Assembly: GCF_039555335.1 (NCBI RefSeq)
Contig: NC_092642.1
Coordinates: 57,639,776-57,703,775, forward strand
Length of the DNA stretch: 64,000 nucleotides
Direction: 5' to 3'
Source: Amphiura filiformis
Lineage: Eukaryota > Echinodermata > Ophiuroidea > Amphilepidida > Amphiuridae
Position 1 is the first letter of the stretch. Each line of letters opens with the position of its first letter. Below are positions 12,420 to 59,201 of the stretch, piece after piece. A model generated the notes under the pieces. That model was not told the origin of the DNA. It did no database searches and saw only the letters and a list, made by a program, of their open reading frames with translations. The translations under genes and the position numbers were made by a program.

Positions 12420-14998
12420 TCAAATGTTCAAATGCTGAGCTTTAAAAATGTGTGTTGTGAAGCTGTATTTATCCTTGCATATCACCCCACAAGTATGACA
12501 TTGGAATGGATGCTTCTCTCCATGCCATAACATATGAATCATATGCATGGTGGGCTCAAGAAAGATGATCCGCAATGCTCGCATTTGTTTTGATTAGGCT
12601 TCTGAGCCAAACAGCTAGTGCACATGTTATCTGCTTGCACATTTGCTCCGCTGCTTGGCATCGCTGCAAGTGGTTGCCAACCAGTCGATGGCGACGATCC
12701 CGACATCACGTTGAAGCCAGTATTTCCTTTTTCAGTAGCCGTGGAGTAATCTGACCCCACGCTTGCTGGCCTGTCATGGTCATCGTTGCCGTTGTACAAC
12801 ACTGTGGTGGAAGTAGTGGATTTGGAATCATCAAATCCATTGGTCAGCGGTTCCGTATTAGTAGTGGGTGTCATGGAAAACACATTAGAGATAACTGGCA
12901 TGTTGGAAACCTCACTAGGGTCTAGCGGTTCTTGTTTGATTCTTACAGGTGGGGGGTTAGCTTTTAACTTAGCCTGCTTACAGGCTAAACAGTCATCATG
13001 CTCATCATGGTCTTCATCATGGTGCTGTGTAGTACTCTGTGCGGTGCCACTGCTTGCCACTGATGAGCCTGCAGAATTAGTTCAGAAACAAATGAAATCC
13101 AATGCAATTTTAGTCATGAACAATAAATTAGTAGTAGAGTATGTAGGCTTAAGTGAATTGGGAGTATTTCATACGGAACAGGTTGAGATCTTGTCTCGGT
13201 CCCAGCCGGTTTGTGTTCCTCCGTCACTAAACAAACCGTCTGGCGACAACCTCTTTGTACGACTTTTCTGATTGGCTGAACCTCACCTCGCAAAAAAGTT
13301 ATGACCGTCACAATTGACCGTCAATCAGCGCTGGGCTTCAGTGCATCGTTGCGGTTACATAAATCCACACAATGTATGCGAGTATGCACTGCGAGCCGCT
13401 GACATGAAAGGCGATATCAGACGATTGGCGACTCAGTGTCTGCTCAGCTAGCGTACAATTTGCGTTTAGTATCACTTACACAAGTCACATCCTATAGCCA
13501 ATTGAAAAGAGTTTTATTTGAAAATTCATTAACCAATCAGTGAACACTATTTCACAGGTTGTCGCCAGATGGTTTGTTTAGTGACGAAGGAGCACAAATC
13601 AGCTGGGATCAAGACTAGTTGAGATCCTGACATATAATGAACAGAAGAGGCACTAGTGACAGGAAATCACTCCTTTTTTGGTCAATTCAAAGTGTCTGGG
13701 TCAATATACAATGTAGCCTTGGGTGAAACAACTGGAAAGAGGTGTTAAATTAAATACTTGCTCCCGGTTTGAAATTAGTAACCTTGCACGTAACATGTAA
13801 AATTGCCCATTGCGTACATGCACACGTACAAGGGCATCTTGTCAGCAAGCTTGCGGGGGAACTGGTCAACATCACTACTGAACTTAAGGTGAACCTAAGT
13901 ACAAGTATATGGCTGGGGCATTAATATAGTGAAAAATTGGTGCTCGTACTTTGTACTCACCCTGTGTGGCTTCGTTATTCATTCCCGAGGTGTCACTACC
14001 AGCTTCAGTCATGCTTCCACCAGATGCATTCCTCCCCTTAACCTTTCCTCCACTTGCATTGTCTCCATTAGCAGGCGGTTTCTTTGAAGCCCTTGTTACG
14101 CGAGAAGATCGTTTGGTGCGAGTGTTACTAGGTGCCCAATCACTGTCCTCGCTATCAGCGTCATCAGACGATGTGTCTGAATCATCATCTCGTCGTCGCT
14201 TCTTTGCTGGTTTACAAGAACTTACATACTTCTCTTTGTGGAATACAAGCATGTGATTGTTATAACTTGTTTGCGATTTGTGAGTTTTTTGCAAATCTTA
14301 CAAGTAAGATCTGGATCTGGCTCCTCCTTGTTGACAGAGGGCGCTGCTGGAGGTGGACTAGGTGGATCAGGTGCTGTCCATGCACTGCTGGCTGCAGCGG
14401 TGCTATCACTCCCACTTCCACCACCTGGTAATGATACTCCGGTCATCGGGGTGCCCTTGATGTTATTCAGCAACTCAAATGGTTTGGTGACTTTATGGTT
14501 CTGCCTCAGATGGGCCTGCAGCATGCTTGCTGTGCTGAAGCAATTCTTGCAGTGAGAGAAACCACATCTAGCGATCTTCTGCGCCTGAGGATGATCCTGA
14601 AGGATGTGATTGTGCAACTCAAGACATTTCTCAAATCCGACGTTACATTTCATACACTCGTACTGCTTCTGTAAAGAAACTGTATTATGTGCCGTCTGAA
14701 TATGACTCAAGCATTTGCACAACAGGAACACTTGGTAGGAGCAGACAATGCACTTAAACACCTTCACGTCTTTGTCGCCATCTTTCAGATCCACCTCTTC
14801 TACCAACTTGGATGAATCGTGGCGGCGCTTTCCCGTGCAGTGAGCGCACTGACAATTAAACCGGGGGCCATGCTCATCGTTGACGTGGGTTTCAACTTGG
14901 TTCTCTGACTTCAATTTCATTTTACAAATGAAACATTTTAGAGATGCTGCTTCATTTCCTGATGCACCACTGTCAGTCTTTTTCTTCTTTGGAGGCAT
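12420..14998 (-). CDS. Gene 1: multi-finger C2H2 protein with Ikaros-like C-terminal finger pair (two frame breaks)
   Basis: Likely nuclear zinc-finger regulator. The ATG at 14998 begins MPPKKKKTDSG, ten bases after a 3' splice site (TGTATTACAG). Coding exons are 14998-13961 and 13068-12420; the intron starts GTGAGT and ends TTCTGCAG, and the joint preserves frame (ATQ-G-SSV). In order: a C2H2 finger, HG plus CQCAHC knuckle, three fingers, a frame-broken central finger (TSYNNHMLVFHK), acidic/serine stretch, DSDWAP with RASK basic patch, CLACK, IKQEP (SUMO-type), CTSC, then the Ikaros-like pair. Two one-base deficits relative to paralogs occur: in a T6 run at 14285-14290 and within 12549-12556. 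Adding two bases gives 563 codons including stop. Beyond the second break the conserved finger continues (HMLWHGEKHPFQCHTCG) to the stop at 12420. Read literally, the protein stops early in the first break. Pseudogene or assembly error cannot be told apart here. Confidence 0.82.
13181..13628. mobile_element. Palindromic element inside the gene 1 intron
   Basis: Left-arm sequences TTGAGATCTTG, TCACTAAACAAACC and TGGCGACAACCT are mirrored on the right by CAGATGGTTTGTTTAGTGA and GTTGAGATCC. The arms are about 70 bp and the total about 450 bp. The element lies wholly within the 892-bp intron (13069-13960) and explains its size. Target duplication not identified. Confidence 0.65.
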
Positions 14999-15009
14999 GA
15001 TGTCAATCT
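14999..15009 (-). other. 3' splice site and short 5' UTR ahead of the gene 1 start
   Basis: On the minus strand CTCTGTATTACAG is followed by ATTGACATC and then the ATG. This implies at least one non-coding upstream exon at higher coordinates, which I could not locate among the repeats. Confidence 0.55.
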
Positions 15010-15734
15010 GTAATACAGAGGAACAATAAAACATATAATGCACAGTGTCAACACCCTGTATTATAAATATTTTTTTCCATACAGCGCCATACTCCGTTGA
15101 AATCAATATTCTATTATTGACACAGATAAAGAAAGTTTACATATGCATTGTGTTATAGGACATGCACCTGGAACTTAATTGAATGGGCTAAACGTGTTCC
15201 TTTATACCTAGATAAAGTATAATTGTAATTCTCAAAATTAAATATATCACAATTTTTACTTTCGATTTCAAAATCTTAACTTTTAAAATGCAGTAAAAGA
15301 TATCCACAGCAAGCTGCAAAACCCCGCTAATTAGTGTATTGCTTTTCGAGTTAGTGTACTGGAAACAAAACCCTGGTTTTACCTGAAAACAAATCAATTT
15401 TTCTTGTAATGGAAACATCATATGGGGTACTAGAGCATGCACAGATCGTAATAATGTGTAGAATATAGAAACTCTTTGGTATCTCATATGATAGTCATGG
15501 TATGCTTAGCCTGAGTCGCTCGGCCTATCTCGAACAAAATCGCCATGCGTAGCTGTTGAAAAACGAGAGGATTCGCTGTACTATCATGGCAATTTTTGAC
15601 ACAAAGATATAGGGATGATGACAATGTGTAATGTTCATAATGAAACCAATTTCCCTGAGAGATCATACACTGGAAATTCAGCCCAAATACAGAATTGCAG
15701 ATTAAATAAGCCAAAAGTTACCTAATTATTTTTC
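15010..15734. other. Upstream/intronic region of gene 1, nothing recognised
   Basis: Presumably the 5' intron of gene 1 if the splice site just ahead of its start is used. Contains only short open frames and no recognised repeat termini. Confidence 0.4.
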
Positions 15735-15882
15735 TCGGAACCACTGGTTTCTATGGGACAAGAAACTACTGGAAGTCACAGAAGCCAATGTTGAAAAGTA
15801 ACCTATTTTTTCTTAACCATTGGATGGTTTCTATATATGGGAGAAATCAACTGGGCTACCAAGTCAAGGTGTGACAACCCTG
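15735..15882 (-). mobile_element. Diverged fragment of the CAGGGTTGCCA hAT family
   Basis: The segment with GGTTTCTATGGGACAAGAAA and GAAGCCAATGTTGAAAAGT is the reverse complement of the interior of the element at 26627-26883. It ends with ACAACCCTG, matching that element's terminus. The other end is not intact. Confidence 0.6.
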
Positions 15883-16017
15883 ATGCAAATTACAATGTGA
15901 TGCCAGGGGTCAAAGGTTTCTACAGGAACTTTTGAAAATAAACCGAAAATTAAACTAAATTCACATTTCTTTCTACTCTGCTTTTTGTATTTCTTCATAC
16001 TTGTCTCTCACTTCCTT

Positions 16018-16755
16018 CCCCTGGATCCCCATTGTTATACTCCAGGAACCACTTCCTTCCCCTGGATCTCCATTGTTATACTCCAGGAACCACTTCCTTC
16101 CCCTGGATCCCCATTGTTATACTCCAGGAACCACTTCCTTCCCCTGGATCTCCATTGTTATACTCCAGGAACCACTTCCTTCCCCTGGATCCCCATTGTT
16201 ATACTCCAGGAACCACTTCCTTCCCCTGGATCCCCATTGTCATACTCCAGGAACCACTTCCTTCCCCTGGATCCCCATTGTTATACTCCAGGAACCACTT
16301 CCTTCCCCTGGATCCCCATTGTTATACTCCAGGAACCACTTCCTTCCCCTGGATCCCCATTGTTATACTCCAGGAACCATTTCCTTCCCCTGGATCCCCA
16401 TTGTTTTACTCCAGGAACCACTTCCTTCCCCTGGATCCCCATTGTTATACTCCAGGAACCACTTCCTTCCCCTGGATCCCCATTGTTATACTCCAGGAAC
16501 CACTTCCTTCCCTGGATCCCCATTGTTATACTCCAGGAACCACTTCCTTCCCCTGGATCTCCATTGTTATACTCCGGGAACCACTTCCTTCCCCTGGATC
16601 CCCATTGTTATACTCCAGGAACCACTTCCTTCCCCTCGATCCCCATTGTTATACTCCAGGAACCACTTCCTTCCCCTGGATCCCCATTGTTATACTCCAG
16701 GAACCACTTCCTTCCCCTGGATCCCCATTGTTATACTCCAGGAACCACTTCCTTT
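16018..16755 (+). repeat. 41-bp minisatellite, about 18 copies
   Basis: The unit contains TTCCTTCCCCTGGATCCCCA and TTGTTATACTCCAGGAACCA. Copies are nearly identical; one unit lacks a C near 16511 and a few carry single substitutions. Because 41 is not a multiple of three and the unit lacks stops, all three forward frames stay open. This produces long overlapping open frames (up to 329 codons, 16032-17021) that are not genes. Confidence 0.95.
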
Positions 16756-16954
16756 TCCGTCCTAATTTAGCCATCCATTTATATTCAACTAGAGCTGACT
16801 TTTCTTTTGCCTGCCACTATTTGGGCCCCCGCCACCCTAGTGCAAGGAAAAAAGAGAAAGGAGGGAGGAAAAAGAGGGGGGGGGGAGAAGGGAAAGAGAA
16901 AGAGGGAATCCATAGGCCTACGATCATGATGATATGTAGTGCCATACGATTATT

Positions 16955-17348
16955 AGGCCCTTCACAATTGATTCCGAGTTTACTGTTCAAGATTTTTAAA
17001 ATAGGACGAGGTGACTTTTAATTATTATTAAAAACAGGAAAAATATGACACAACATCCAATCACACAAAACTTTATTTATATGTTTTGTGTGACTCCCCC
17101 ACTTATTACAGGATCAACATGGTCCCTAATTCTATTCAGTAGGATCCTATGTTATGCTGTTTGTTTATTCATCATTATTGTTGATATGATTCATGTTAGA
17201 AAGTACATGTAGCAAGTAAAAGTCATTTATAAAAGTTATTTTAAAAGGAGAAAATGCAAAATAAAAACAAAATAATTAAATATTTTGCAATTTTCAATTT
17301 TGGACGCGGGCGGTGAACAGTAAACTAAGAATTTAGTGTGAAGGGCCT
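16955..17348. mobile_element. Palindromic MITE with AGGCCCTTCACA ends
   Basis: AGGCCCTTCACAATTGATTC then GAGTTTACTGTTC on the left is mirrored on the right by GAACAGTAAACTAAGAATTT and AGTGTGAAGGGCCT. Relatives occur at 30668-31457 and 32966-33530, and more distantly at 49307-49709 and 63450-63560. Confidence 0.7.
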
Positions 17349-18676
17349 TATCAATATACTCGACAATATGCTTCACTGCTTGAAGACAAAGAAATAGAAA
17401 TCTTTTGAAATGCTAATTGCACAAAAGCACCTACATGTATAGGAGCAGTATATTGACTAAAACAAATAAAACAATAAAATGGCCAAATCAAAAATAAAAG
17501 TCGCAAAAGGTGGTCAAAAAGGCTGTGTTCGACATGTTTCTTGTATTGCATGCCCCAACCGAAAATTTTCAGTATCAACACAAAATTGGCCAATTAAGTC
17601 ACTTACCATTGAGCTATTTCAAACTTAGGGCCGGATTTACCATTAGAACAGATGGGTACGGATCCTGGCCCCTAAAATATCTTAAGGTATGTTCTCCAAA
17701 ACACCATGTTTTGGACCGAAATATGGTAACATTGCAAAATTTTGTGCGCCTCGCGCGCACTGGCCTTTACGTAAAATTTACCTTAATTTTGGGCTAAAAT
17801 TGTCTGAAATTGGAAATTTTTAGCACGCTTCGAAATTAGTAATAAAAAAGCAAATTTTTCTTGTGGAGCTCACAATTTCTTTCACGGTCAATAGTTGATT
17901 CCAAAATCAGAAATGTTCAGTATTAAAGTGAGCCATTATTATGCAATTGCAAGATATGTTGCATCCGGGCAAGAACCGGCTGACAATAGCAATGGAGTGA
18001 AAACAACATTCGCATTCACTGAACTCTGGAGTGTATCACAAGCTATCACACTATTGTGCCAGGTTCAACTCTCTGCAAATAGAAATATGCGATAAGTTGT
18101 TTTCACTCCAATGGCATGCATGAATGTAGGTATGCCAGGTGAATTCAAATTTGCCATCAAACTGCATCATTTTATATATCAAATTAAAGCCCTTGAGTAA
18201 AGAAAGCCAACACTGAAAACCTTTTTGTCATAGCACTTTCCGTATCAAAGTTACATCTAGTCAAAGATTGACTTTCATCAAAAAGATTCAGCTAGCAAAA
18301 TTCCCAAAAAAAAGCATTTCGGGGGTGTTTCTAGATCTTAGTCTCATGACGATAGCAGCTTTTTTTTTTTTTTTTTCTATCAAAAACCCTCTAAAATTCC
18401 ATGTGTGAGTCTCTCATCACCAAAAAAAATCATATATTTGGGTCAAGTGAAGTATAGACAACATATTTATGTAGGTTTCCTTGAGCAAGCGGTTCTTTTA
18501 AATTTCAATGTAAATTTGTATTGCCGGTTTAGGCCATTTTGGCTGACTAGCAAATGTGTTAACTGCATGACTGACATGTCGTTTCCCTCTTATACCTAAT
18601 GGATGGATCATGTGACGTGCACAATCAAACTTTCACCATTGGCACTGTACAAATAATTAAGAGAACACACCAGGTA
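17349..18676. other. Repeat-derived non-coding stretch with a hairpin
   Basis: A partial hAT-like terminus GGGCCGGATTTACCATTAG lies at about 17629, without a matching right end. At 17989-18112, CAATGGAGTGAAAACAAC is mirrored by GTTGTTTTCACTCCAATGG, forming a loose hairpin. A T17 run lies at about 18360. No coding region recognised. Confidence 0.45.
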
Positions 18677-19412
18677 TGGCGATCCTGACTTTTAGACCAC
18701 CCGCGCTATATAGGGCTAAAATATTACTATTTCATCAAGGTTTAATATATTCTAACAAGCTTAAACTAAAAGTTTCATCTAAGGAGTCAAGCTTTAAACT
18801 ATTTAGCAAAAATATCCAACAAGCTAAAACGATTTTTTACCCGGTTTTAACAAGCTAAAACCAATTTTTGAAAAGAAGCTTAAAAGCGTCAATTTTTCAT
18901 CGTAAAATCATCTAAAAATCTTTAAAAATACAGTGACCTACCTAATATTACTAATCTATGTTTCCGATGATATCCAAGAAGCTAAAATATTGTGAAACGG
19001 GCAGGGCTTTGAGTAATGAGGGAAATTTCGGGTAAAATGTATCACGCCGAGAAATTCGCCATTTTGAATAAACAATGTCAATGCAGAATTGCGCCACGAG
19101 TAAAAGCGATGTCAAAGCGCGCTTGAAAATGCATGATACGCTAGCGTAAATTACCGTCAAAACGAGCGTACATCAAGCGCTTGTGCTACGCGAAAACTTC
19201 GGAGCTGGCATCACCGGTTTTGTTACCAGCTCTTTTACGTCAAAAATAGCTATAAAAACATGAATTTTGGAACAAAATAAAGCTTGTTCGATGGAATAAA
19301 AGGTATGTTTGTACAGTTGAGAACATGTTTAACCTTGTTGCAAAAGTTTAATATGATAAATTTGCAATTTGCACCTTATATAGCTCGGGTGGTCTAAAGG
19401 TCAGGATCGCCA
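18677..19412. mobile_element. Palindromic element with TGGCGATCCTGAC ends
   Basis: TGGCGATCCTGACTTTTAGA then CCACCCGCGCTATATA on the left is mirrored on the opposite strand at the right by TGGCGATCCTGACCTTTAGA and CCACCCGAGCTATATA. Length about 736 bp. Clear target duplication not seen; no transposase recognised. Confidence 0.7.
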
Positions 19413-19634
19413 CTATGATGATCAATTGCACAGTTGGGAAACCACCAACCAATAGTACACACACAGCTGCTCACATTACAACCCCATGCACTGAACTGAC
19501 CAATCAGGTGCATGGATTTTCAAGAAAATTTGTTCTGGACTATGAAAAATGCTCATGCATATTACTTTTGTCCATCAAGATTTGACTGTCTCCACTTGTA
19601 CTTCCTACACGAGTAGCTTGAATAAACCTTAAAC

Positions 19635-21211
19635 TAGAGTTGGGCGACTATCACTTTTTTTCCTAGTCGAGCAGCAAATAGTCGCGACTACGACTATAGT
19701 CGCGACTATCTGTGGTTAAAATTGGACTGAAAAATCGGGTGAAAGATTGGTGGCAATTTAGTATTTATAATGCATGATTACAGGACCCGTGATTGCCGGC
19801 ATCGCATCACAGTTTGCTACACAAACCAGCACTGTTGCGATACAAATTGCTACACTGTCTCGCACGTTTGCGATGCAAATATTTGACTGTAAAATGCTGT
19901 AATATAGGCCTAACTTTTCTGTTCAATTAAATTCACTTGCCACTTTCCAGCAACAGCACAAGAAACTTCATATAATTTCTCAAACCTTCAATATTCCAAT
20001 AGCGATCTTCATTCGTTTCCATGTTTTGCTGTGCATGAAAATATGTAAACATGCCGGTACGGCAGTGCATATTTTCCATGGTACGTATGCTCATGAACGT
20101 GTTGCATCGTGCATGTACGATTAACTTTCACCTCCGACCTACGTCACCTGACCTCATCTAGACTACTGCATTTGTCGCTACAGTGGTGGCATTGCAACAT
20201 TACGACTGTTTGTCAGCTAACTTGTTTATTTTCCTGTTGCTTTCTAAATATTCTGTTACCACAATAATCATAGCTTTTTGAAATTATGTGAAAAGTACTT
20301 CTAATCGAATAATATTTTCCTAAATTGTCCCTTTTGGAAAACACTTCTCGGAAGTTCTTGCTGTTTCTTTCCAAAGTTAAAATAATCTCATACCTTCAGT
20401 AGTTGGTACAAACACCCAACCTGGGTCTGTACATGCACGCTATGACGCTGCTACACCTGTTATCGCTGCATAAATTATAATCATAATGAGATGTTCGACA
20501 GTTCTAAGTAATTTGAGTTTTTGACGGCTTTTATCTTGTGGGAAAGTAGTTCGACAACAAGTCAATAACACCAATTTAATGATGATTTATGGACTTTATG
20601 ATTACTTGTTGGTTAGTGTTACTATTGGTAAGACAATGACTAACATTTTTCACATTTTTTTCAGTTTATATGTTAGTATTTGGTTGGTTTTGGTGCGAAT
20701 AACTGGCACTTTTAAAGTAATTTTTTTACACAAAAATATACTTGCATTAGTCGACTTTTGGTTTTCAATAGTCATAGTCGCGACTATCAGTACCGTAACC
20801 ACTCGGGTATAAGCTCACCCCCCTAGATGGCAGATTTCACTTCAAAAAATGGGGGTGGGCTTATAACCGGGGAAGGGCTAGTGCTTGAATTTAAAAATAA
20901 GAACAACCACAAATGTATATATGCCCAATGTACCAGTAATTTTCTATGTCAATTTTTTTAAATTATAAGTGTGGAATGTTAATTATCAACTGATATTTTT
21001 TATATTTGTTCTTAAATATGAGAGCAAAACATTGATTTGATTTAAGAACTTAGCCAAAATTTAGTGCTGGGCTTATACCTGAGTGCACCCTTGTTCCCAG
21101 AGTGTTTTGAAAAATAGGGGGTGGGCTTATAGCCGAAGGTGGGCTTATACCCGGGTGGTTACGGTAATAGTCGCGACTAACGACTATTGGCGACTTAGTC
21201 GCCCAACTCTA
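19635..21211. mobile_element. Non-autonomous hAT element with TAGAGTTGGGCGACTA ends, carrying a nested MITE
   Basis: TAGAGTTGGGCGACTA on the left is mirrored by TAGTCGCCCAACTCTA-type sequence on the right. The 8-bp CCTTAAAC is duplicated exactly at 19627-19634 and 21212-21219. The subterminal sequence is rich in AGTCGCGACT palindromes on both sides. A TA-targeted MITE at 20793-21164 is inserted near the right end. Without it the element is about 1.2 kb; no transposase frame is recognised. Confidence 0.9.
20793..21164. mobile_element. TA-targeted palindromic MITE nested in the hAT
   Basis: CCGTAACCACTCGGGTATAA with GCTCACCC on the left is mirrored by CCGTAACCACCCGGGTATAA and GCCCACC on the other strand at the right. 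TA flanks both sides. It splits the AGTCGCGACT-rich subterminal repeat of the host element and so is younger. Confidence 0.85.
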
Positions 21212-21969
21212 CCTTAAACCTCCGTAGAAAAACTTTGAAAACCTCAGAAAAACTTTTAATTTTTTACAAAAGCCCTTGACATTTGAGTAATGTTGGTTCC
21301 ACTTACATCAGTTACATGTATTTCAATGGGATGTAATTTGAGCTGGTGATGTCATTGGGTTATAATGAGCTGTGGTTGATTCATTTGCATAACTTAAAGC
21401 TGAATTTGTACAGAAGTTTGCTTGTGACGTGGCGAGAATACAAAATTGTACAAACTCTTCATGACCATTTTACTATTTACCGTAGAATACACATGATCAG
21501 TATAATTTTGAGTTCCAACAGGATGCATTCATCATATAAGTTTATATCAAAATTCGACTATGGCATAGTCTACCCCCCCCCCCAACAAGTGTTTGTGAAC
21601 GGTCCCTGACTTCTCGTTCATACATACGCGTTATATAACAGCATGCGTGATTGGTCGATAGGCGGGCATAAACAACGTTTATGCCCTGCTTTCTGGTCGT
21701 AAACAAGCCGCGTCAGAACCGATGGACTTTCGCGAGTAGGATATACTCGCCTATATATGCTCGCGAGCTATTTACGCAAAGCGCGAATGATGAACGCGAT
21801 GTTCGCGCGCGTCCAAACACGGTGGACTGAGCAAGTAAACGTTTTCTTACAATTAGCAATGGAAAAACTTTTCAAAAGGATAAGAAATTGGTAGTTTTTA
21901 GTCAAAAATGACGATATTTTTTAGTTATGGAGGAAAATAACAGCACGCAGAATGTTACGTATGTATGAC
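21212..21969. other. Non-coding spacer with a short palindrome
   Basis: Contains GGGCATAAACAACGTTTATG then CCC near 21663, which resembles the inner part of the hairpin at 21970-22074. GC-rich CGCGAG motifs lie near 21730-21810. No gene recognised. Confidence 0.4.
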
Positions 21970-26883: not shown

Positions 26884-26891
26884 CATGTAGA

Positions 26892-29199: not shown

Positions 29200-29214
29200 G
29201 TAGCAATGTTTGCA

Positions 29215-44012: not shown

Positions 44013-44045
44013 TTAAATTTGTCACTTTTCTTTCATCTTTTTCAG

Positions 44046-44217: not shown

Positions 44218-47200
44218 ATGCGCAAAACATCAGTAGTTGTTGTCACCAAATCATTTCAGTGTCCATATCAACAGTGCACCTTTATAGCAAGATAGCAGAG
44301 CAAATTAATGCACACATGGAGACTACACATAAGAATCAGCCGGATTCCTCCAGCAAAACGTCCAACACAAATGATAAGCCAAAGTGTAGTAAGTGTAACG
44401 AGACTTTTTCTGGTCTAATCAAAATGTATGATCACTACAAAGTAGCCCATGGACGAGAAACCCATGGATCTTCAGATTGCAGGTGTGTTGCATGTGTCAG
44501 CAAAAAAACACACATACTACTAGTTAAACTTGAAATTGCAGAGGGTGGCGAGAAGAGAACTATTTACAAGTGTAAAATGTGTCAACAGCCGTTTCTGGCG
44601 CTATGTAAAGGTTTGGACCACTGTCACACGTCTCATCTGCAGAAGCCACTTGAGTGTGGAGCATGTGATCAAACTTTCAGCGTTTACAAAGAGTTGCATC
44701 AACACATCAGGACACATAAACCTGGAAGCAAAGTAATCTGTGGCTACTGCAAGAGAACGTCCGACCCAGGGAGGAAGATCTTCCAGAGTCCGCACACACT
44801 CAACAGGCATCTGATCAGTGCTCACAATTTTGAGAAAGAGTCGGCTATATGGAGCCGAATTACACAACAAAAACAGTGCATGAAACAGACCAAAAGGATT
44901 GAAAATATCGGAAAACATCCTGCGAAGAGGAAAGAGATGGTTACAAGAAGTAATGAAGACAGCAACTATGGTAATAATAGTGCAGAAAACAGTGAAGGGC
45001 TTCCTCCTCCGGTGAAAGGCAAAGAAGCTCCTGAAAAAGAAGACAGTAATCATAGTACAAACAAAGAAGGGCTTCCTCCTCCGGTGGAAGGAAAAGAAGC
45101 TCCTGCAAAAGAAGACAATAAATATAATAATAATGAAGAAAACAATGAAGGACTTCCTCCTCCTCCTAAGGAACAAAGAACTGAAGAAGTGCATCCTCCT
45201 CCTACTCCAGAGGGAGAAAGAAATGGTACTGCTGGACAAACTGCTCGCAATACTAAGGGTAACCAAGGTGTCAAAAGACACCACCATCAAGAGAAACAAA
45301 ATAAAGTTGCTGCCAGCAACATTAGTGGCAGTAATGCGGACAGTAAAAAAGTAGGCGTTGTGACGAAAAAGTCAGGTAGACCCGGCAGGCCAACTAGAAC
45401 AAGTGGAACAGAATCAGTGCAGAAAAAAAATGATCAGGGTGTGGAAGAAGATCTAGGTATTAAAAGTGCCAGTGACAAAAAACATCACCATAAAGAGAAA
45501 CAAAATAAAGTTGCTGCTGGCAACATCAGTGGCAGTAATAAGGACAACAGAAAAGATGGCAGTCTGACAAAAAAACCAGAAAGACTCCCGGGTAGACCCG
45601 TCAAATCAAAGAAAACTAGTGGAACAGAATCAGTACATAACAAAAATGATCAGGGTGTGGAAGAAGATTTAGGTATTAAAAGTGCCAGTGACAAAAAACA
45701 TCACCATAAAGAGAAACAAAATAAAGTTGCTGCTGGCACCATCAGTGGCAGTAATAAGGACAACAGAAAAGATGGCAGTCTGACAAAAAAAACAGAAAGA
45801 CCCCCGGGTAGACCCGTCAAATCAAAGAAAACTAGTGGAACAGAATCAGTACAGAAAAAAAATGATCAGGGTGTGGAAGAAGATCTAGATATTAAAAGTG
45901 CCAGAGACAATCTACAAGCCAATAAAGACACTAGTGAAAGTCGTCATGATGCTAGGAAACCAGCTGTAAATAAGCAACAAGGAGGGAGACTGCCAACAAA
46001 TGCTGGGCCTAGTAGTTATCACTGCGTGGAGTGTGTAAGGGACTTCAGAACAGAAGCTGCCTATGACAGTCACATGGAAGTGTACCATCAACAAAAAGCA
46101 GCAAAGAGAAAAGTTACTGCTAAAGATAGCAGACAATCAAGAGCAGACGACAGTAGACAATCAAGAGCAGACGACAGTAGACAATCAAGAGCAGACGACA
46201 GCAGACAATCAAGAGCAGACGACGAGGAAGAGATGGAGACAACAGAAGATGGAGATGATGATTATAATTGTAGTACTGATAGTCTGGGTGCTTCTTCCTC
46301 GTCAGATTCTGAGTGGAATTCTACCCTAGACCCATTTAAAATCACAAATGCTTCAACACGCCAGTCATCAAGACTGAGTAAGACACATGAAGAACCAAAG
46401 AGACGCTCTACTCGCGCCAACAAATCGGGTTCCGAAAGAGCAGAGCGAAAGATGTCAAGGAAACGAATAGTGATGAATGAAAGTGCACAGTCATCTGGAG
46501 AGGAAACGGAGTCGACCTCCCCTCAAATTACCAACCCTCCAAAAAAGCGAAGAAAAAGACCAACATCAAATGAAAGTTATTCAGCAACATCTGTGGAAGG
46601 CAGGAAATCTAATGTGAAAATAACTCCTGCGCGGAAAACGACAAGAAAACGAGCTGCATCAGACGCGAGTATTCCATCTTCCGAGGAATTTAATAACATT
46701 CCTGATTTATCACTTCATGACATCAATGACGTTGGAAATCAGTCTGAAAACCCCATGTCTCCTCAAGCTGAACCAGCTGTGCTATCACCGATTTTAAATA
46801 TGACCAGTTCACCAGTAGGCCCTCAAAATGAAAATACGCGCCAACGTAGCATCATCCACCCGAATGAAGATTCCTCACAAAGTAATGCCTCTACTCCCTT
46901 CCTTGATTCAGAGGTCATATTGCCAACCACGCAAGTTGCTAGCCCTCACCTATTGATCAGCAATGTACACAGTATCACCCAGCCTAGTGAGCCTACTACT
47001 TTTAGCAATAATGTCGGTAGTGTTAGGCGTGCTGGTAGAATAGTCCGACACAATCCCGACACTGATCGTCATCATGTATCGATAGTCCCTGCACCAGTCC
47101 CTGCAGCACCTAGTATACATCTACATGGAACGCCATTGGAACCGACTACAGACACCCCAATGTGTATCAGGTGTTGGCAGACTTCAAGCGCCACCAACAT

Positions 47201-47360
47201 TTGCGAATTTTGCGGGATTATATTTCTAGATGTTGACATATACACATTGCATAAATTGTTGCACGATAGAGAAAACCCGTATAAGTGTACAGGATGTGGT
47301 AAAGTGTGTGGTAGCAAGTACCAGTTTACTTCGCATGTATTCAGGGATCCTCATCCATGA
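44218..47360 (+). CDS. Gene 2: long multi-finger C2H2 protein with Ikaros-like C-terminal pair (one frame break)
   Basis: Likely nuclear regulator. I place the start at ATG 44218 because that frame reads MRKTS... then CPYQQCTF, matching CPHDGCKF of gene 3. After codon 25 a stop appears, and the same finger continues one frame over (INAHMETTH). One base is missing at 44293-44295; adding it gives 1,048 codons including stop. In order: N-terminal finger (split by the break), KCSKC finger, HG and CRCVAC knuckle, three fingers, EGLPPPV repeats, three roughly 72-residue repeats with GRP cores (45276-45915), a central finger (YHCVEC...HMEVYHQ), four DSRQSRAD units, acidic and DSEW stretch, basic SxRLSK/RSTRANK region, long Ser/Pro linker, CIRC, then CEFCGIIFLD...HKLLH and CTGCGKVCG...HVFRDPHP. 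A shorter start at 44316 would lose most of finger 1. Antisense frames here are shadows. Confidence 0.87.
45276..45915 (+). repeat. In-frame 216-bp coding tandem repeat in gene 2
   Basis: GAGAAACAAAATAAAGTTGC starts at 45291, 45495 and 45711 (spacing 204, then 216 bp, both multiples of three). AAAAGTGCCAG closes units at about 45462, 45678 and 45894. Units two and three differ at few positions, so they duplicated recently. Each encodes a His/Lys start, VAAG-ISGSN, a PGRP-containing basic patch and an acidic VEEDL end. Confidence 0.9.
46129..46227 (+). repeat. 24-bp coding minisatellite in gene 2 (DSRQSRAD units)
   Basis: Four nearly identical units containing GACAATCAAGAGCAGACGAC encode DSRQSRAD repeats just before an acidic EEEMETTEDGDDD stretch. 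In-frame copy-number change would be tolerated. Confidence 0.9.
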
Positions 47361-47604: not shown

Positions 47605-47612
47605 CACACCTG

Positions 47613-49709: not shown

Positions 49710-49881
49710 ATATCATGCCCCATATCTTGTAATTAAGTTCGCGCATGAATTATGGAAACTTTGTAGTGTGAAGGTGCTAGTACTATAGCCCCGATCTCAT
49801 CTCAAGTTGAAAGTAACACCATGTTGGATTTTGAAATGACAGATTTGAATGGTGCCCACTAACCTAATCTTGCGAAGCATA

Positions 49882-50143: not shown

Positions 50144-50837
50144 ATATACGCACGTGAACAAAGGTGATTTATCCATACGCTGGCGACACAATAGCATAAA
50201 CGCACTAAATACGCCACTGCAAAATCCAACATGTTGCGTTACTAGACAAGACAGGCTATCGTACATTTGTGGTCTATGCATTGTAATACCAGTAGGTTTG
50301 CAAAAATAGAGATGCTTTAATTTGAGAGAAATTTAACATTTTATGAAAAGTGATGATTGTATTAAGATAAGTAGAGGTCTGCCAGTTTCTTTTCATGATA
50401 CTTCTGTTATAAAGAATGCATGGGGTAATAGTAGTTGAATTGACTAAAACTATGTTTATAATATACATTTTATTTTTCACTCTCAGTCACTCTCTTCTCA
50501 TGAAGTTGCTTTTGTAATGACTTGGGAGTAATCACTGTCCATCCCATAATATTGAGCTATCAGCTAACCCAACATAGGTTATTTATAATAGGTAGTATCT
50601 GAATATATAACCCATTCATACACTCTTAGATTGCAAAAACCAATCAGAGCAAATGATAGAAATATGCAAACCATGCATCGATTGTGTATAATGCACCGGC
50701 TTGCACTCTGCTTAGCGCAGTGCTGTTGGATGGGCTCATTTTTCTTAGAGTTTGATGCTGCTACAGATGTTGATGCATCTAATGCAATCAGCATATCAGT
50801 ATGTGTAAAATTTTGTTGCCAACAAGTGATACACATT
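50144..50837. other. Non-coding spacer
   Basis: No gene or clear element; short overlapping frames on both strands near 50579-50843 lack supporting signals. Confidence 0.45.
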
Positions 50838-50840
50838 TAT

Positions 50841-51129
50841 TAACCCTAACCCCTAAGGGCTTTTCGGCGACGGGAAGGGAAAGAAGGACAGAATAAACAG
50901 AGAAAAGAAGAAAAGAAGTTGTTTGCTCTGGGTGTGATTCGAACCCGAGACCCCTCGCATGCCAAGCACTCGGTCGGCGACACTTTGCCACAGGTCTTGG
51001 GCTTCGCTGGCCAGCAAAACCGTGCCTATATATCACTTAGGGCGATTGCGTCATCACACCCGTGGGATGCATGCACGAACAGCGCATATATCAAGTAGTA
51101 TTTTGTAGTATTCAGGCGGGTTAGGGTTA
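50841..51129 (-). mobile_element. tRNA-derived SINE-like element bounded by inverted telomere-like ends
   Basis: Minus strand: TGGCAAAGTGT (A-box-like, 50980-50990) and GGTTCGAATCA (B box, 50936-50946) are spaced as in tRNA genes, within GACCGAGTGCTTGGCATGCG then AGGGGTCTCGGGTTCGAATC. Departures from consensus and no closed acceptor stem argue against a working tRNA. The unit is bounded by TTAACCCTAACCC on the left and GGGTTAGGGTTAA on the right, inverted copies of a telomere-type motif. A pyrimidine-rich CTTCTTTTCTTC tail follows the B box side. Confidence 0.6.
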
Positions 51130-52131
51130 AGCTACACGTTATTGTCACAGGTCAGTTACTTTGAATCAGTTTATACATTTGTATGGCCTGTTTACTAAAC
51201 GTTGACCCAAATATTATCACTATTGTTATTGTGTGCAGGCTTAAAGAGCAATGTTGCCAGTGTTTATTTGTTAAGTTTGCATTAAGTCCAAGAAACCAAG
51301 TCGGCTGTGACAGATAAACAGATTATGCATTGATGAGCAACTGTTCAACGGTTATTCCTTTACCAAGTAGCACAATTTAAAATTTAGCTGAATGTATTTG
51401 AGTTGTGTCTAGATAAAACCATATAATAGAAAGAAACAAAGTTAGAGAAACAACAAAACATGAAATTGAAATCGCACTGAACCATTTCTACTGAGTTTTG
51501 CAAGTGAGGATCCATTTGCTGAGTTTTTTCATTCTTTTATAATGATGGAAACAACACTTTTTTGCATAGATGCACAATAGCTGCCATTTGCATTTGCCAA
51601 GTTTGCAATGAGGTATTGGTCACAAGGAACATGCCTACATTGCAAATCTTACAATATGCTGCACAATATTCTTGCACACAAGTAAACTATGCCATTGTAG
51701 ATGATCCTATATTTGTCTCATATCTCTAGGGCACTCATCTCTCTGTTGTAAACCCCTGTGGTCCTATTTATTTGGTTTTGTGCATCCGTTCATCCATCAT
51801 ATGGTTGCATGTTTTTGTCTCTCCTTGCGACTCCAATGAAGTTTATCTCCATTGATTTTTTTTGCAACTCTCAGAGCTTTGTTACCAGTTTCTGTAATGT
51901 GCTGTGCATGTACAAGTGAATGCGGGTGTGCGAATCGTGCAAAGGGAGATGAGGCTGTCTTGGCTGCCATGTTAAGTCTTCCACAAATCAACTGTATGAA
52001 ACTGACGATCTTTCTTCTGTGTCTTCCACAGGCCTCAAAGCGAGAACTGAATGAACCAATAGGAGAAGCAGATAAACAAGTGATTTGGTAAGGAACCAGT
52101 TTGATACCGCTCGTTAACCCGGAAAAATAAC
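51130..52131 (+). other. Upstream region of gene 3, with candidate splice signals
   Basis: TTTCTTCTGTGTCTTCCACAG ends at about 52031 (good acceptor), and GTGATTTG followed by GTAAGG at 52089 is a good donor. A 5' UTR exon at 52032-52088 is therefore possible. However, no convincing acceptor lies between it and the gene 3 ATG, so read-through transcription is the simpler model. No core promoter identified. Confidence 0.4.
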
Positions 52132-54194
52132 ATGGCTGCCAAAGGCACCTCATCCCGAGTAACATGCCCGCATGACGGTTGCAAGTTTGTCACAAACTCA
52201 GCAGACAGTATGTTCCACCACATCAAGGACAAACATGTGATTCCCGTAGCACCACCACCTCCATCCCCACCAGCACCTGCTATTCAAATCCGCAGAGATC
52301 AGAAGAAATGTTTCATCTGCAAAAAGGTGTTTCCAGCAGCTAAGGAGTGTTTTGAGCATATTTCAAGATCGCACGGTCCGTTGGAGTGTTCCTGCACTAG
52401 ATGTAGTAGAAAAAATGACAATCACAGATTCATGACCAGATCAACAGCTATGGATGGTGATAAGAAATTTGATGTATTTAGATGTATTCTGTGCACTTCT
52501 GCATTCTTGGGCATGTGCCGGTGTTTAGTGCATTGTGAAGAAGAACATATAGAAGACCCATTTGAGTGTGCACTGTGTAATCTAACGTTCAAATCTCACA
52601 TGGATTTGTCTAAGCATATGACAGATCACCTGGAAGAAGGCCAGAACATGGTGATCCAGGCTAGGTGCAGCTATTGTAAGAGCGGTGGTGGTCATACTGG
52701 CACTAAGTTTTTTAGAAGACCTGTAGATCTCTACAAACATATGGTAGAGGTTCATAACTTTGAGCAGGAATTGGAGGCCAGGAAAAAATATGAAGCAAGC
52801 AATAAACCTGGCGGATTCCCTCGAATACCATCGCTTGTCAGTCAGGAATCAAAGCCGCCATCAAGCACCTCAAGGGAATTTCAACCCTTCGTAAAATTGA
52901 AGAAGCAACCAGAGGTAGCACTGGGATCCAAGGAAAAAGAGAAGAATGAGAAGGAACCATCCAGAAAACGAGCAATGACAGCTGAAGATAACCAATCACA
53001 AGTCGCAGAGAAGAGAAGGTCAGGGCGAAACAAGTCCAATAATGAAGAAACCGTCAAATTCAAAGCAAAGGGCAGGCGAAGCAAAAAACCAAAGACGGTT
53101 ACCACATCCGCAGAAACAGAGGTGAAGATACCTTGTAGCAAAACCTGCACTGTAAGTTTCAGAAGTTTTACGTCATACAAGAACCACATGATCACGTTTC
53201 ACAAATGGAAGGCCGACAATGAAACGATTCGTGAGATTGGAAAAAAATATGGGTATGATGAAGATAAAAAGGATGCAGATAAGGAGGCCTCAGATGATGA
53301 GAATTCAAACAGAGAGAGCAGTGACGATGAATGGGCACCTGGAAACAGATCAAAGAGAAGAAAGATCACCAGAGCTTCCAGGAGAACAAATTTAGTTTCA
53401 ACTTCAGTTCCATCTCCTGCAAGTTCTGCATCATCTGATATAAGTAGCTTAACCTCAGGGGCCACATCAACGACCAGCTCTGTTGATAAAATTCAACAAC
53501 AGCAGGTTGCACAACCTGGAGATGGAGACCAATCGGCAATTGATGAAATCCAAGCTGACAGCATGAAACAAAGTGGTGTTGAAAGGACTCAACCTGCAGA
53601 TGACAAACGCACGGCCGTGTCGTCTAATGTTAGTCAGCACATCCAACAACAACCAAACACCCAAAATGTAAGTGCAGGGCACGAGATATGTACCCAGGCC
53701 AACTGCGAGGGATGCCTCTATGAGCAGAACAGGAGACCAAACATTGTTATTAAAACAGAACCGGAAGATTCTCCTTCAACTTCTACTAACATGAACAATA
53801 ATGCCCCGAGTCCTGGTTACGGTACTCAGTCTTACACCCAAGAAAATCAGTCAGGCTTTATGTCTGACTCGAATACCTCGCACGTATCCTACGCGTCGGG
53901 ATACGCTGCCTCGCCGTACTCCGCCTCTCTACCAGTTGCAAGCAGAATGCCTAGTAGCTCATTCCCAATGACAATGGCTCAAGCAGACAGTCAATGTACT
54001 GGCGCTGTTTGACTGAATCAACTGCCAAGAATATATGCCATCCATGTGCCATGATTTTTCTCGACCCAGATGTATACACGTTGCACAAACTTTGGCACGA
54101 CCGCGAGGATCCTTATAAATGCAGCTACTGCGGTAAAAGCTGTGGAAGCCGATATCTGTTCACAACTCACATATTCAGAGATCCACATCCTTGA
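52132..54194 (+). CDS. Gene 3: multi-finger C2H2 protein with Ikaros-like C-terminal pair (frame break before the pair)
   Basis: Likely nuclear regulator. ATG 52132 sits in AACATGG, a good start context. Fingers: 1 (C12/C17/H30/H35), 2 (C60/C63/H76/H81), HG plus CSCTRC knuckle (86-91), 3 (C118/C121/H134/H139), 4 (C146/C149/H162/H166), 5 (C179/C182, extended loop, H203/H208), a central CSKTC finger near 335-360 (TSYKNHMITFHK), then basic, acidic and DDEWAP/RASRR segments, a CTQANCEGC cluster, and IKTEP near 541 (SUMO-type). The frame stops at 54012 right after QCTGAV. The C-terminal pair (CHPCAMIFLD...HKLWH, CSYCGKSCG...HIFRDPHP) continues one frame back to 54194. Removing two bases from GGCGC at 54001-54005 restores the CxxC and gives 687 codons including stop. 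A literal reading lacks the dimerisation pair. Confidence 0.87.
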
Positions 54195-54319
54195 AACCTG
54201 TTCTCAATATAAGATGGACAATTGACATGGAAATTCACCATAATCTGTTCATTTTCAATGAAACATAAATAGTGTATTATTGTGTACATAATTACTCCGC
54301 TATGTGTTGCACTAATTGC
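54195..54319 (+). other. Gene 3 proximal 3' region
   Basis: Follows the TGA ending at 54194; no further coding similarity. Presumed 3' UTR. Confidence 0.4.
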
Positions 54320-54512
54320 TAGGCTGTTCCATTTGGAATCCATGTACCCCCATCCATACATCCGAACATGTCCTTGATCTCCAACACAGGGAGTGTAGAT
54401 TTCAATTGGAGTTGCTCGTTTACATAAGCCATTTGAGATTCACACCCCCTGCTTGGAAAATTTAGGCCATGTCTTCCATAGGGGATGTATGGGTATCAAC
54501 TGGAATAGCCTG
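54320..54512. mobile_element. GGGCTATTCCATTT family, diverged copy
   Basis: GGCTGTTCCATTTGGAATCC then ATGTACCCCCATCC is mirrored by GGGGATGTATGGGTATCAAC and TGGAATAGCC. Shorter and more eroded than the 49882 and 59418 copies. Confidence 0.6.
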
Positions 54513-56850
54513 ATGCACCAGAACTTGTTGACATGCCTTTCAGCTGATGGATTAGTGCATGCACCTTGCAACTTTTCATCTTTCACTTGTAATCTATAGG
54601 CTGATAAATGAAAATGGGATTATCAAGTCTGAAATAATTCATTTTCACATTAGCATAGTTCAGTTGGTGACTTGGTGAATGTACAAACATATTAGGGTAG
54701 GGTTAATGAGGTGTGTGTGTGGTGATAAATTGAGTTATTTCAAATCCTATGAGCTGAAGGAATGATCCAAAATCAGGGGTGTGATTCTTCAGGATTTTTT
54801 CCTGTGGCCAAAATTTAATGCAATTCTATTGATTTTTAACCCATTTTGTGGTATTTTAGCCCAATTTCAGTTTTTTAAGATTTTCGACTACTTACTATTT
54901 GAATCACAGCGCTGCAAAATGCACATGGCACTGTAGCACAATGTATGTAAATTGCTGAATGAATGTAAAAAGCACATTGCTGCATGGCCATGTGTACATG
55001 TATTCCATTTCTTTCAAGTTGAATAGACTGTGATTCTTGTGCCAGAAGTAAAAGTTTGCACATACAGCTTCAATTCATCTGCCAGTTTTGCCAATTGTAT
55101 ACATTTTTCAAGTTTTTTGAGTTTTGTATTCACATTCTGAGGAATCTCCTGCTCGTATTCGTCACCACACTAAAAGTATAATTGTTTTCTTGATTTTTGC
55201 ACAAGTTGTACATGTAATCATGTGCACTGTAGCTTTTCATTGTGTGACAAGAATGACCAACCATACAACCATGTATCATTGGAATGGCCAACTGAAAAAG
55301 CATTCAGACTGGTCTTAGGACTTGTATCATAGGAATGACCACCTATGCAACTTAGGCATTCAAAGTGGTTTTAGGACAAAAGTATTGCATTTGTAACTAG
55401 CTGAAATGAATAAACCAGATTGACAACATCAGCAAGCATTTCCAGTTGACACAACTTAAACGATCGTCATAGAGATAAGAGATGAATAAGATGATATGAT
55501 GTTTCCAATTTTTATAACCATCTATGGAACTCCAGGTTGGAGGATGGACAACTTTGTCATTGGTGATCTGACAATTTTGAATCATTAAAAAGCGACACAA
55601 TAATCTGCTCTAAATGACCTTCAGGGTGGTTGATGTGTAAGCATGCCATTGGCGAACTAAAGATTGCAGCAAGATTTTGGTGATATCTGCAGCATAAATT
55701 ATGGACACCACAATCAGCTTGACATATCACAGTTACAAAATTGGTACTAGACAATTTGTAACCATGGCAACAATAATTTGATGAACAAAAAGAATTGTAC
55801 AAAACTAACAAGAGAAATATTATACAAAGCACTGGTGGTATGGACACATCCAAACATGAAAAGTGACTCATCGTGATCCTGCAAAAAGAATATGCATTTG
55901 TTTTTTCAAACTTGATGAAAACATGATATGACTGAATTGGTAATGGTCTGCTAACTGTGGTTTCTAGCATAACACTTTTACGTATGAATATACTGCATGC
56001 ACCAAAATGTTATTAACTTCATCCATTGCCATGAGCATTGCCAAATTGACCACAACCAATCAAATCATGCCAGCTAAATTCCGCTGACTTTGTGTAAGTA
56101 ACACAATGTGCAAGGGTGGACTCTGCCCATCAGGTCTGTGTCCGGGAAGCCAGTATGCATGTGCCGCCAGTTCTGCAAGTTGTGACATTCTGAAAACTGA
56201 ACTGAAAGACTAATATCAAACACTTAAAACATTACATAACTCTCTGTCAGAGTGTCATCAGGCCTGTATTCATTAACCAGGATTATATTTTTTTAAACTA
56301 GGATTAAAGAATCACTAACAAGATTTAAACATCCATTGGCTGTTGTATGCATGTCTTGGAACTACCTGCCACTAATCAAGTTGTGAAAAGTGAGGTGACT
56401 TGCAATAATTAGAGGTCAATATCTTGTAACTAGAATTTTAACCAGTGTTAACCATGCAATAACCAGGGTTGAACATATAGTTTTGTTGCCTGCTTTATCT
56501 GCTCATCCACTTGCCTGCTTACCTGCCTGCCTGCCTTCCTGCTTGCCTTCCTTTTCGTCATTTCAGTTTGCATTAACCGTAGTTATGATTTTGCACCATG
56601 CAGTTAACCAGAGTTAATTCATCACTGATCAACATCAACAAAGGGTCATGCATGCAGTAACCAGAGTTCATCATGCAGAAACAAGGATTAAAGAAAATTG
56701 AGCAGCCTGACTAAACCTCTGCCTGCATGATGGACAGTTGCATAAACCAGACTTAAAAGATCATTTCATGTGCAGAGTAACCAAAGTTAAATCAACTGTT
56801 GAAAGCAAGTGTTTCATCAAGTAATCTCCGTTTTTGTGACTATTTTGCAG
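54513..56850. other. Spacer between genes 3 and 4
   Basis: No exon recognised; a 137-codon minus-strand frame at 55557-55970 has no recognisable domain. From about 56270 to 56840, AACCAGRGTTAA-type phrases recur (for example ATAACCAGGGTTGAAC, TTAACCAGAGTTAATTC), and CTGCCTGC-like repeats occur near 56520. TTTTGTGACTATTTTGCAG is a plausible 3' splice site ending at 56850, implying an upstream 5' UTR exon for gene 4. Confidence 0.45.
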
Positions 56851-56936
56851 GCACAACCCTGCAATCCTGCATGTGCTACCTGTTGTAATAAAACCTTGCA
56901 TCAAAACTGAATTGACTTCAACAACTTATAACCACC

Positions 56937-59201
56937 ATGATAAGAAAGAAGTCCACCAGAGGTCCCAGTTGGAGACAGCGCTCTCCCGTTGAGCCTGAGA
57001 GACAGCGCCCTCTTGCGACTGAAAAGCAGACAAAGGGGCTTGCACCAAGTGACGATTTAAAGTGCAAAGTATGTGGTAGAACCTTTCACAAACGGGCGAT
57101 GTTAAAATTCCATCTTCTTACCCATAACATGACAACCAAGAAGTTGATGTCGTCTGCGCAAGTAGAAAGTTCAGATGAAAAGCTTGAGAGAGAACTGATG
57201 GAGGCTGATGGGTCGGGAGGCAGTAAAATGGCATCTGAAAAATCACAGATTAACGAGGCAGAGAAAACAATGGAAGCAAGTGGTAGTAGCGTCGTGGTGA
57301 CAAGACAAGCGTCGTCAAGTTCTCGGGATGAGGTTGATGACGAAGATATCTCTGATGAGATGTATAAATGTATCGCTTGCGGGAAATTGTGCCATGATCA
57401 AGAGATTCTCGATACCCATATTGTACAAAAGCATGGAGCGAGGCTGAAATGCCAGTGTCAGGTCTGTCATGGCAACAAACGAAGTGATATTGCCTCCCTG
57501 ATGGAGAAATATCACATTCAAGATGGTGAGGAGGATGTGCGGGTCTTTCGTTGCTTGATATGCAGAAGTGTCTTTTTCCTGGGATGCAAATGCGTTTATC
57601 ATATTGAGCAAAGTCACAACTCTATCATTCTGAAATACCCATTTGAATGTGCAAATTGTGGGAAAATGTTCGAAATGGTGTCGCTTCTGTACGAACATCA
57701 GAAACAGGAACATGAACAGCTGGAGAAGTTATCCCGGTGTGGATATTGCAAAGATTCCTTTAAGTTTACTTCGTTGTTGGAATCTCATATTCGACAAATG
57801 CACCAAATAACCAAAGATCCTATCATAAGCTCAGTGAAGGAAAGTACAAAACTACCTGTTACTGATGTTGTATCAAGTAGTTCTTCCACGGCACATGTGA
57901 ATCTTCCAATGCAAACAGCAATAGCAAAGAAATGTACAAGAAGCCCACTACCAGGACCTTCGGTGTCTAGCACCTCGAGCGACATCGTGAATGCCGATGA
58001 ATTTACCTGCGAGATCTGCAATCGGAAATCACAAAGTAGAATAGGTTATACGAACCATATGGTGGTGTATCACAAAATCAAACCAGATGATCTTCCTCTG
58101 GTTAGGGCATCTGGTTTTGGAAAGCAGATGTCACAGAAGAAAGCATCTGGTGATAGCAATAATGACAGCGATGATGACAACTGGAGGCCATCAAGAGCGA
58201 AGGCCACCTGCACTCCAATGAGATCCTCCACAAGACTAGCACTGGCAGCATCACGTAGAGAGGTGGAACCCACTCTTGCTCAACTCCAAGATGAGTTTAA
58301 TCGTGAGAGTGATGAGGATACACATCAAGTGGTCAGTGAAGCAATAGGTCCTACTTCAGAAGCAGAAAGCAGTCATTCTGAAGCATCTTATAAACCTGCA
58401 GGTGATGATGACGATCCTGAAGATGATGATGATGGTCCTGAGGATGATGATGATGGTCCAGAGGGTGATGATGAAGCGGAAGATGATGATGATGTCAAGA
58501 CAGAAGATGAGGAAGAAGACACAGTCCTGCCCCACTCTCCAAAAGACATTCCTCATACTAAATCACCTGGCTCCCATGAAGGAGACTCTAAAGATAACGA
58601 GGTTGATAAATGCAAGAACTGCCCAGCCTGTAAACAAGAAGCAGCGCAGGCAGCTGCAGCAAAAGTCTTGGCCGAAGAACTGGCGATTAAAAGAGAGCTA
58701 CAAGAAGAGGAAACTGAAAACGAAGATGGGATACCATTGAAACTGTTATCTAATAGGCAACCTCAGCTGGTTATTAAAGATGTGTACAGCCTTCACCCAT
58801 CTGGCAGTAGTGCTTCATCGATACAATCTCAGTATAGTGAAGACACAGTAAGGAGCTACACATCAATCTCGGAAAGAGACCATACATCTCCGCCACCACC
58901 AACAAGGCAAAGACAACCTCAACAGCAACCTACCCCAATGTTGTCAACGTCGTCCATCCCAGTGCTTGTGCTACACATGCCACCATCCGGTGAGCCTATC
59001 TGTCAAAGTTGTAGCGGGCGGACGATTTACACGACCAGTCGATGTGTCCACTGTGATCTGGTGTTTCTTGATGAGGTCATGCATACAATTCACATGGGAT
59101 GGCATGGAAGGACCAACCCGTTTGATTGTCATGCTTGCGGGAGACAGTGCACGGACAAGTATGCCTTCATAACCCATATATTTAGAGACCCGCACTTGTG
59201 A
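56937..59201 (+). CDS. Gene 4: intact multi-finger C2H2 protein with Ikaros-like C-terminal finger pair
   Basis: Open reading of 754 residues and the reference for the family; probably a nuclear regulator able to dimerise. The ATG lies in ACCACCATGA, close to the Kozak consensus, 86 bases after a likely 3' splice site. Domains: finger 1 (C43/C46/H59/H63), acidic linker, finger 2 (C145/C148/H161/H166), HG and CQCQVC knuckle (172-177), fingers 3 (C206/C209/H222/H227), 4 (C238/C241/H254/H259), 5 (C268/C271/H284/H289), central finger 6 (C358/C361/H374/H379), DDDNWRP (413-419), Asp/Glu-rich block (490-528), CKNCPAC (559-565), CQSC (689-692), finger 7 (C703/C706/H719/H723 with FLDEVMHTIHM) and finger 8 (C731/C734/H747/H753). 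The last two match the Ikaros/Hunchback/TRPS1 C-terminal pair, including Hx5H spacing. The first fingers do not show Ikaros-type TGEKPF linkers. DNA-binding specificity is unknown. Confidence 0.93.
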   Translation: MIRKKSTRGPSWRQRSPVEPERQRPLATEKQTKGLAPSDDLKCKVCGRTFHKRAMLKFHLLTHNMTTKKLMSSAQVESSDEKLERELMEADGSGGSKMASEKSQINEAEKTMEASGSSVVVTRQASSSSRDEVDDEDISDEMYKCIACGKLCHDQEILDTHIVQKHGARLKCQCQVCHGNKRSDIASLMEKYHIQDGEEDVRVFRCLICRSVFFLGCKCVYHIEQSHNSIILKYPFECANCGKMFEMVSLLYEHQKQEHEQLEKLSRCGYCKDSFKFTSLLESHIRQMHQITKDPIISSVKESTKLPVTDVVSSSSSTAHVNLPMQTAIAKKCTRSPLPGPSVSSTSSDIVNADEFTCEICNRKSQSRIGYTNHMVVYHKIKPDDLPLVRASGFGKQMSQKKASGDSNNDSDDDNWRPSRAKATCTPMRSSTRLALAASRREVEPTLAQLQDEFNRESDEDTHQVVSEAIGPTSEAESSHSEASYKPAGDDDDPEDDDDGPEDDDDGPEGDDEAEDDDDVKTEDEEEDTVLPHSPKDIPHTKSPGSHEGDSKDNEVDKCKNCPACKQEAAQAAAAKVLAEELAIKRELQEEETENEDGIPLKLLSNRQPQLVIKDVYSLHPSGSSASSIQSQYSEDTVRSYTSISERDHTSPPPPTRQRQPQQQPTPMLSTSSIPVLVLHMPPSGEPICQSCSGRTIYTTSRCVHCDLVFLDEVMHTIHMGWHGRTNPFDCHACGRQCTDKYAFITHIFRDPHL

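Follow-up and report, generated by a model that had tools for sequence, protein, structure and literature searches.

Four neighbouring zinc-finger genes of Amphiura filiformis carry terminal finger pairs resembling the Ikaros/Hunchback/TRPS1 module

The best-known role of the DZF module is to let Ikaros proteins pair in lymphocyte development. A preliminary description of 64,000 nucleotides of Amphiura filiformis DNA (contig NC_092642.1; the window, by which we mean this whole stretch) proposed that four zinc-finger genes lying close together carry such a module at their C termini. This locus raises the question of whether the terminal finger pairs belong with those of Ikaros, Hunchback and TRPS1 or are ordinary C2H2 fingers, and of what a local set of such genes might do.

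The four genes and their four terminal finger pairs are present in the sequence as described. They are neighbours, gene 1 lying on the minus strand and the other three on the plus strand (Table 1), and their bodies match one another by tblastn, as in the comparison of the front of gene 1 with gene 4 (E-value 5.9e-40). Because of these matches, and because the profile scores reported below lie above those of the generic fingers scored, the likeness of the four genes exceeds chance. The coding intron of gene 1 has good splice sites (GT at 13960, acceptor AG at 13070-13069). Stretches upstream of the ATGs that resemble 3' splice sites suggest that all four genes may have introns in their 5' UTRs. 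In the assembly, an uninterrupted frame from the ATG through the finger pair exists in genes 2 and 4 only. Replacement changes between the copies are fewer than synonymous ones: in 12 pairwise comparisons pN was 0.19-0.52 and pS 0.70-1.16, with pS at 0.75 or above, where correction fails, in 10 of the 12. Since the synonymous sites are near-saturated we judge the duplicates to be old and, from the same comparisons, to be under constraint.

Table 1. Positions of the four genes and of their features in the window
Feature	Position	Strand	Remark
Gene 1	12420..14998	-	ATG 14998, stop 12420; coding exons 14998-13961 and 13068-12420
Gene 1, 3' splice-site-like stretch	15008..15020	-	just upstream of ATG; by eye
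Gene 1, N-terminal finger module	14453..14944	-	F1-F4 and CxCxxC cluster; from alignment
Gene 1, lone finger F5	14238..14302	-	split by frame break
Gene 1, terminal pair (DZF-like)	12432..12583	-	first finger split by break; CxxC at 12622 upstream
Gene 2	44316..47360	+	1014 aa, one open coding exon
Gene 2, 3' splice-site-like stretch	44036..44045	+	upstream of ATG; by eye
Gene 2, N-terminal finger module	44373..44846	+	long insert in F4; from alignment
Gene 2, lone finger F5	46023..46088	+	
Gene 2, terminal pair (DZF-like)	47202..47354	+	CxxC at 47163 upstream
Gene 3	52132..54194	+	first frame of 626 aa, stop at 54010-54012
Gene 3, 3' splice-site-like stretch	52021..52031	+	upstream of ATG; by eye
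Gene 3, N-terminal finger module	52297..52776	+	long insert in F4; from alignment
Gene 3, lone finger F5	53134..53202	+	
Gene 3, terminal pair (DZF-like)	54036..54188	+	open and conserved past break
Gene 4	56937..59201	+	754 aa, one open coding exon
Gene 4, 3' splice-site-like stretch	56841..56850	+	upstream of ATG; by eye
Gene 4, N-terminal finger module	57354..57836	+	F1-F4 and CxCxxC cluster; from alignment
Gene 4, lone finger F5	58008..58073	+	
Gene 4, terminal pair	59043..59195	+	closest to the DZFs (81.8 bits); upstream CxxC at 59001

All four terminal pairs follow the pattern CxxC-x12-HxxxH-x7-CxxC-x12-Hx5H over 51 residues, the row for gene 1 having been joined by hand over its frame break. 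The preliminary description had reported an HxxxH finger followed by an Hx5H finger that ends the protein, and this is what we find in every gene, with 1-3 residues between the pair and the stop. The FLD motif reported alongside it is present in genes 2, 3 and 4 and missing from gene 1, where an FLE-like sequence falls on the frame break. In genes 1, 2 and 4 a further CxxC precedes the pair by 9-10 residues; the equivalent place in gene 3 is taken up by its frame break. The closest pairs are those of genes 2 and 3 (36 of 51 residues identical) and of genes 1 and 4 (29), while the other four comparisons give 21-25.

As references for the DZF class we used seven sequences (IKZF1-5, Hunchback and TRPS1) that were set down after the window had been read and are not database entries. 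A profile of these seven non-database references scored gene 4 at 81.8 bits, gene 1 at 61.1, gene 2 at 57.6 and gene 3 at 55.3. Six PDB fragments reached at most 37.5 bits (HIC2), followed by ZBTB24 (31.8) and four others (22.9, 20.2, 18.3 and 17.3), and eight inner pairs that served as controls, F2F3 and F3F4 from every gene, gave -1.9 to 17.4 bits. This profile check, of a kind proposed in the preliminary description, places all four pairs above the generic fingers scored, the weakest window pair standing about 18 bits clear of the best generic fragment. Run against 177,635 PDB sequences, the same profile returned 179 matches at E-values up to 10. Among the best 60 of these 179, HIC2 was the only chain resolved by domain (peak 34.4 bits), chains with a single matching stretch scored 35.5 bits or less, and the larger totals, up to 61.2, were several fingers summed; no solved DZF structure was recognised among these matches. 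One candidate for such a structure, 2MA7 (Eos), was dropped when the reference Ikaros DZF missed it at an E-value of 0.001.

A profile of the non-database IKZF1-4 references alone gave 64.7 bits for gene 4, 52.0 for gene 1, 41.3 for gene 2 and 39.0 for gene 3, compared with 46.0 for Hunchback, 69.8 for TRPS1 and 76.7 for IKZF5. The 11 generic pairs stayed at or below 26.0 bits, which leaves a gap of 13 bits to the weakest window pair. In the reverse direction, a profile built on the four pairs of the window scored the seven reference DZFs at 45.2-76.6 bits and the 11 generic pairs at 22.0-41.2, a margin that is small for Hunchback. When this profile was limited to genes 1-3, gene 4 scored 84.5 bits and the DZFs 36.0-66.8, with one generic pair, Ikaros fingers 2-3 (42.0), above Hunchback (36.0). 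Built on the 11 generic pairs instead, a profile fails to split the DZFs (28.9-41.1 bits) from the window pairs (36.6-41.1).

Column counts separate the four genes further. Over 45 unmasked columns, gene 4 had 18-27 identities to four DZFs and 11-16 to five generic pairs; for gene 1 these counts were 13-24 and 12-15, for gene 2 they were 15-20 and 14-18, and for gene 3 they were 15-19 and 12-17. We then removed 15 C2H2 consensus columns, with 31 of the first 45 columns left. Gene 4 matched the DZFs in 7-15 of the 31 and its best generic pair in 5, and gene 1 gave 2-12 and 6. With 4-8 against 7 for gene 2 and 4-7 against 6 for gene 3, these two genes do no better than generic once the consensus columns are masked.

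The tree, which had also been proposed, was built from 22 rows and 53 columns (the seven reference DZFs, the four window pairs and 11 generic pairs). The window pairs fall with the DZFs and away from the 11 generic pairs, on a branch with support of 100/99; the same split was recovered without TRPS1 (100/99) and without TRPS1, IKZF5 and Hunchback (100/100). As one group the four window pairs had support of 75/73, which rose to 80/95 and 96/98 when these references were removed. The test does not reject a topology that sets the seven DZFs apart from the window and generic pairs (p-AU 0.554); the window pairs may be nested inside the known DZFs or stand beside them. Neither profile nor tree places the pairs with generic C2H2 fingers, and both support, with these non-database references, the original reading of the pairs as the Ikaros/Hunchback/TRPS1 C-terminal module. 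As judged from the sequences, the resemblance is strong for genes 4 and 1 and weaker for genes 2 and 3; the latter two are placed in the DZF group because of their profile scores, their position in the tree and their kinship with genes 4 and 1.

Among the non-database references, the pair closest to that of gene 4 is TRPS1 (30 of 51 residues identical), and IKZF1, IKZF5 and fly Hunchback share 27, 26 and 20; with fly Hunchback genes 1-3 share 14-17. TRPS1 is described as a repressor that combines C2H2, GATA and Ikaros-like fingers (PMC6079100). The window, in contrast, has no match to the GATA-type spacing CxxC-x17/18-CxxC in the six frames of its 64 kb, a search that a finger split by an intron or lying in an exon outside would escape. 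Like the four window genes, Hunchback and nematode HBL-1 bear two such fingers at the C terminus. In the Ikaros/Hunchback family the two C-terminal fingers are stated to serve homo- and heterodimerisation, and C. elegans is credited with six such genes, among them HBL-1 (PMC12506653). Several Ikaros-family genes in one invertebrate were thus already known; what is unusual here is their clustering and the front module, whose fingers are set apart from those of Ikaros proteins. A literature search, with most subscription papers outside its scope, found no such cluster described among the titles and starts of abstracts listed (20 of 1,630 and 15 of 410 matches, for example). A 2024 paper on the evolution of the Ikaros family from the deuterostome ancestor, which appears as a reference title in PMC12146709, may describe one. 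Searches for relatives gave 22 and 99 pattern matches in viral contigs and 50 and 26 in bacterial and archaeal genomes, none of them confirmed, and found none in phages, as expected for an animal gene.

We consider it fairly probable that the four genes are an old local family of nuclear transcription regulators. The N-terminal finger module would contact DNA or another nucleic acid, and the terminal pair would join each protein to itself, to its three neighbours or to the other DZF proteins of the animal, yielding a set of homo- and heterodimers. A nuclear role, DNA binding, dimerisation and a choice of partners are all predicted on this reading, as is a repressive output, which we infer from putative consensus SUMO sites read from the sequence (IKQEP in gene 1 and IKTEPED in gene 3). 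If it is correct, the pairing module has been retained after being combined with new sets of fingers, and the cluster would be a natural set for finding the residues that decide partner choice.

It is possible, if doubtful, that the terminal pair is of DZF descent and no longer pairs these proteins, contacting another protein instead, by analogy with HBL-1 and LIN-46. According to PMC12506653, HBL-1 carries the pair but does not form homodimers through it, and it binds LIN-46 via two fingers, one of which is C-terminal. The divergence of the gene 2 and gene 3 pairs outside the consensus columns is in keeping with such a change of partner. Genes 4 and 1, however, keep much of the DZF sequence outside the consensus (7-15 and 2-12 of 31 columns), and the module has been kept at the very C terminus in all four copies, which argues for retained pairing.

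The proposed family of dimerising regulators could also be smaller than it looks. As assembled, gene 1 contains two frame breaks, near 14285 (in finger 5) and near 12550 (in the first terminal finger), and gene 3 contains one, near 54000, immediately ahead of its terminal pair, which sits in another frame. Genes 1 and 3 might accordingly be decaying copies, or give shortened products, with the pairing module made by genes 2 and 4 only; we regard this as unlikely, and it would be compatible with the other explanations, not exclusive of them. Past the breaks, the frames reopen without stops, for 108 and 175 residues after the first break of gene 1, 46 after its second and 62 in the last piece of gene 3. 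The gene 1 piece past the second break, moreover, compares with gene 4 at a pN of 0.264 and a pS of 0.701. Because of these stop-free frames and this excess of synonymous change, assembly error or very recent loss appears likelier than long decay. We rejected a tiny intron spanning the gene 3 break, since at about 34 bases it would be too short; programmed frameshifting was weighed as a further candidate for the breaks.

The front fingers share a module of about 160 residues in all four genes, consisting of fingers F1 to F4, with a CxCxxC cluster between F1 and F2 and one additional invariant Cys in F2. Its alignment has 28 columns that are invariant across the four sequences, with pairwise identities of 43-60 out of 146-159 positions. 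Genes 3 and 4 have an extra N-terminal finger, at 52165 and 57063, respectively, and acidic and basic stretches follow the lone F5. The front-finger layout had been called foreign to Ikaros proteins, and the comparison bears this out. In Ikaros, HTGERP/HSGEKP linkers connect the DNA-binding fingers, whereas the pattern H[TS]GE[KR]P is absent from all eight protein pieces of the four genes; relative to the Ikaros family the window also adds the CxCxxC cluster (all four genes), the extra Cys in F2 and the CxxC before the pair (genes 1, 2 and 4). AlphaFold models of the front module and the terminal pair were poor (mean pLDDT of 64.5 and 57.7), and a fold search with them returned nothing at an E-value of 0.001 or better. 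The gene 3 front fingers (52132-53202) have a weak match to a ZNF451 zinc-finger model (E-value 0.0076, below cut-off), and a second ZNF451 model matches gene 1 (E-value 0.3) and gene 4 (E-value 2) weakly.

Four invariant Cys lie outside the C2H2 ligands of the front module (residues 33, 35, 38 and 78 of the gene 4 row) and may form a zinc site. A more elaborate version of the dimerising family, which we think rather improbable, would make it a DZF family of its own kind, with a putative extra four-Cys zinc site contributed by the CxCxxC cluster and the F2 Cys, a zinc shared at the dimer interface through the CxxC before the pair, and combinatorial dimers closed to outsiders.

Searches with the window sequences themselves speak to whether the pairs are DZFs at all. 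The passing or near-passing Pfam matches are general C2H2 models, and six protein pieces had no match in NCBIfam. Searching the PDB with the gene 4 pair or the window-pair profile put generic multi-finger proteins on top, and neither these queries nor a front-module profile separated the families, because multi-finger chains sum their scores. That the pairs are ordinary C2H2 fingers whose spacing converged by chance, as these matches and the masked counts of genes 2 and 3 might suggest, is nevertheless very improbable and already disfavoured by the bit gaps under both DZF profiles, by the tree split with support of 100/99 or better, and by identical spacing and identical terminal position in four of four genes.

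Several other elements were noted in the window. A short plus-strand ORF at 100-363, which we take to resemble the end of a LINE reverse transcriptase, has one weak Pfam match, below cut-off and to another family. Between its fingers gene 2 contains in-frame repeats (44987-46223) of 72 bp in 1.9 copies, 216 bp in 2.4 copies and 24 bp in 3.9 copies. A 128-bp tandem repeat occupies 6387-7272 (7 copies, 88% match), and a 41-bp tandem repeat at 16009-16754 (18.2 copies, 97% match) is open in all three plus-strand frames.
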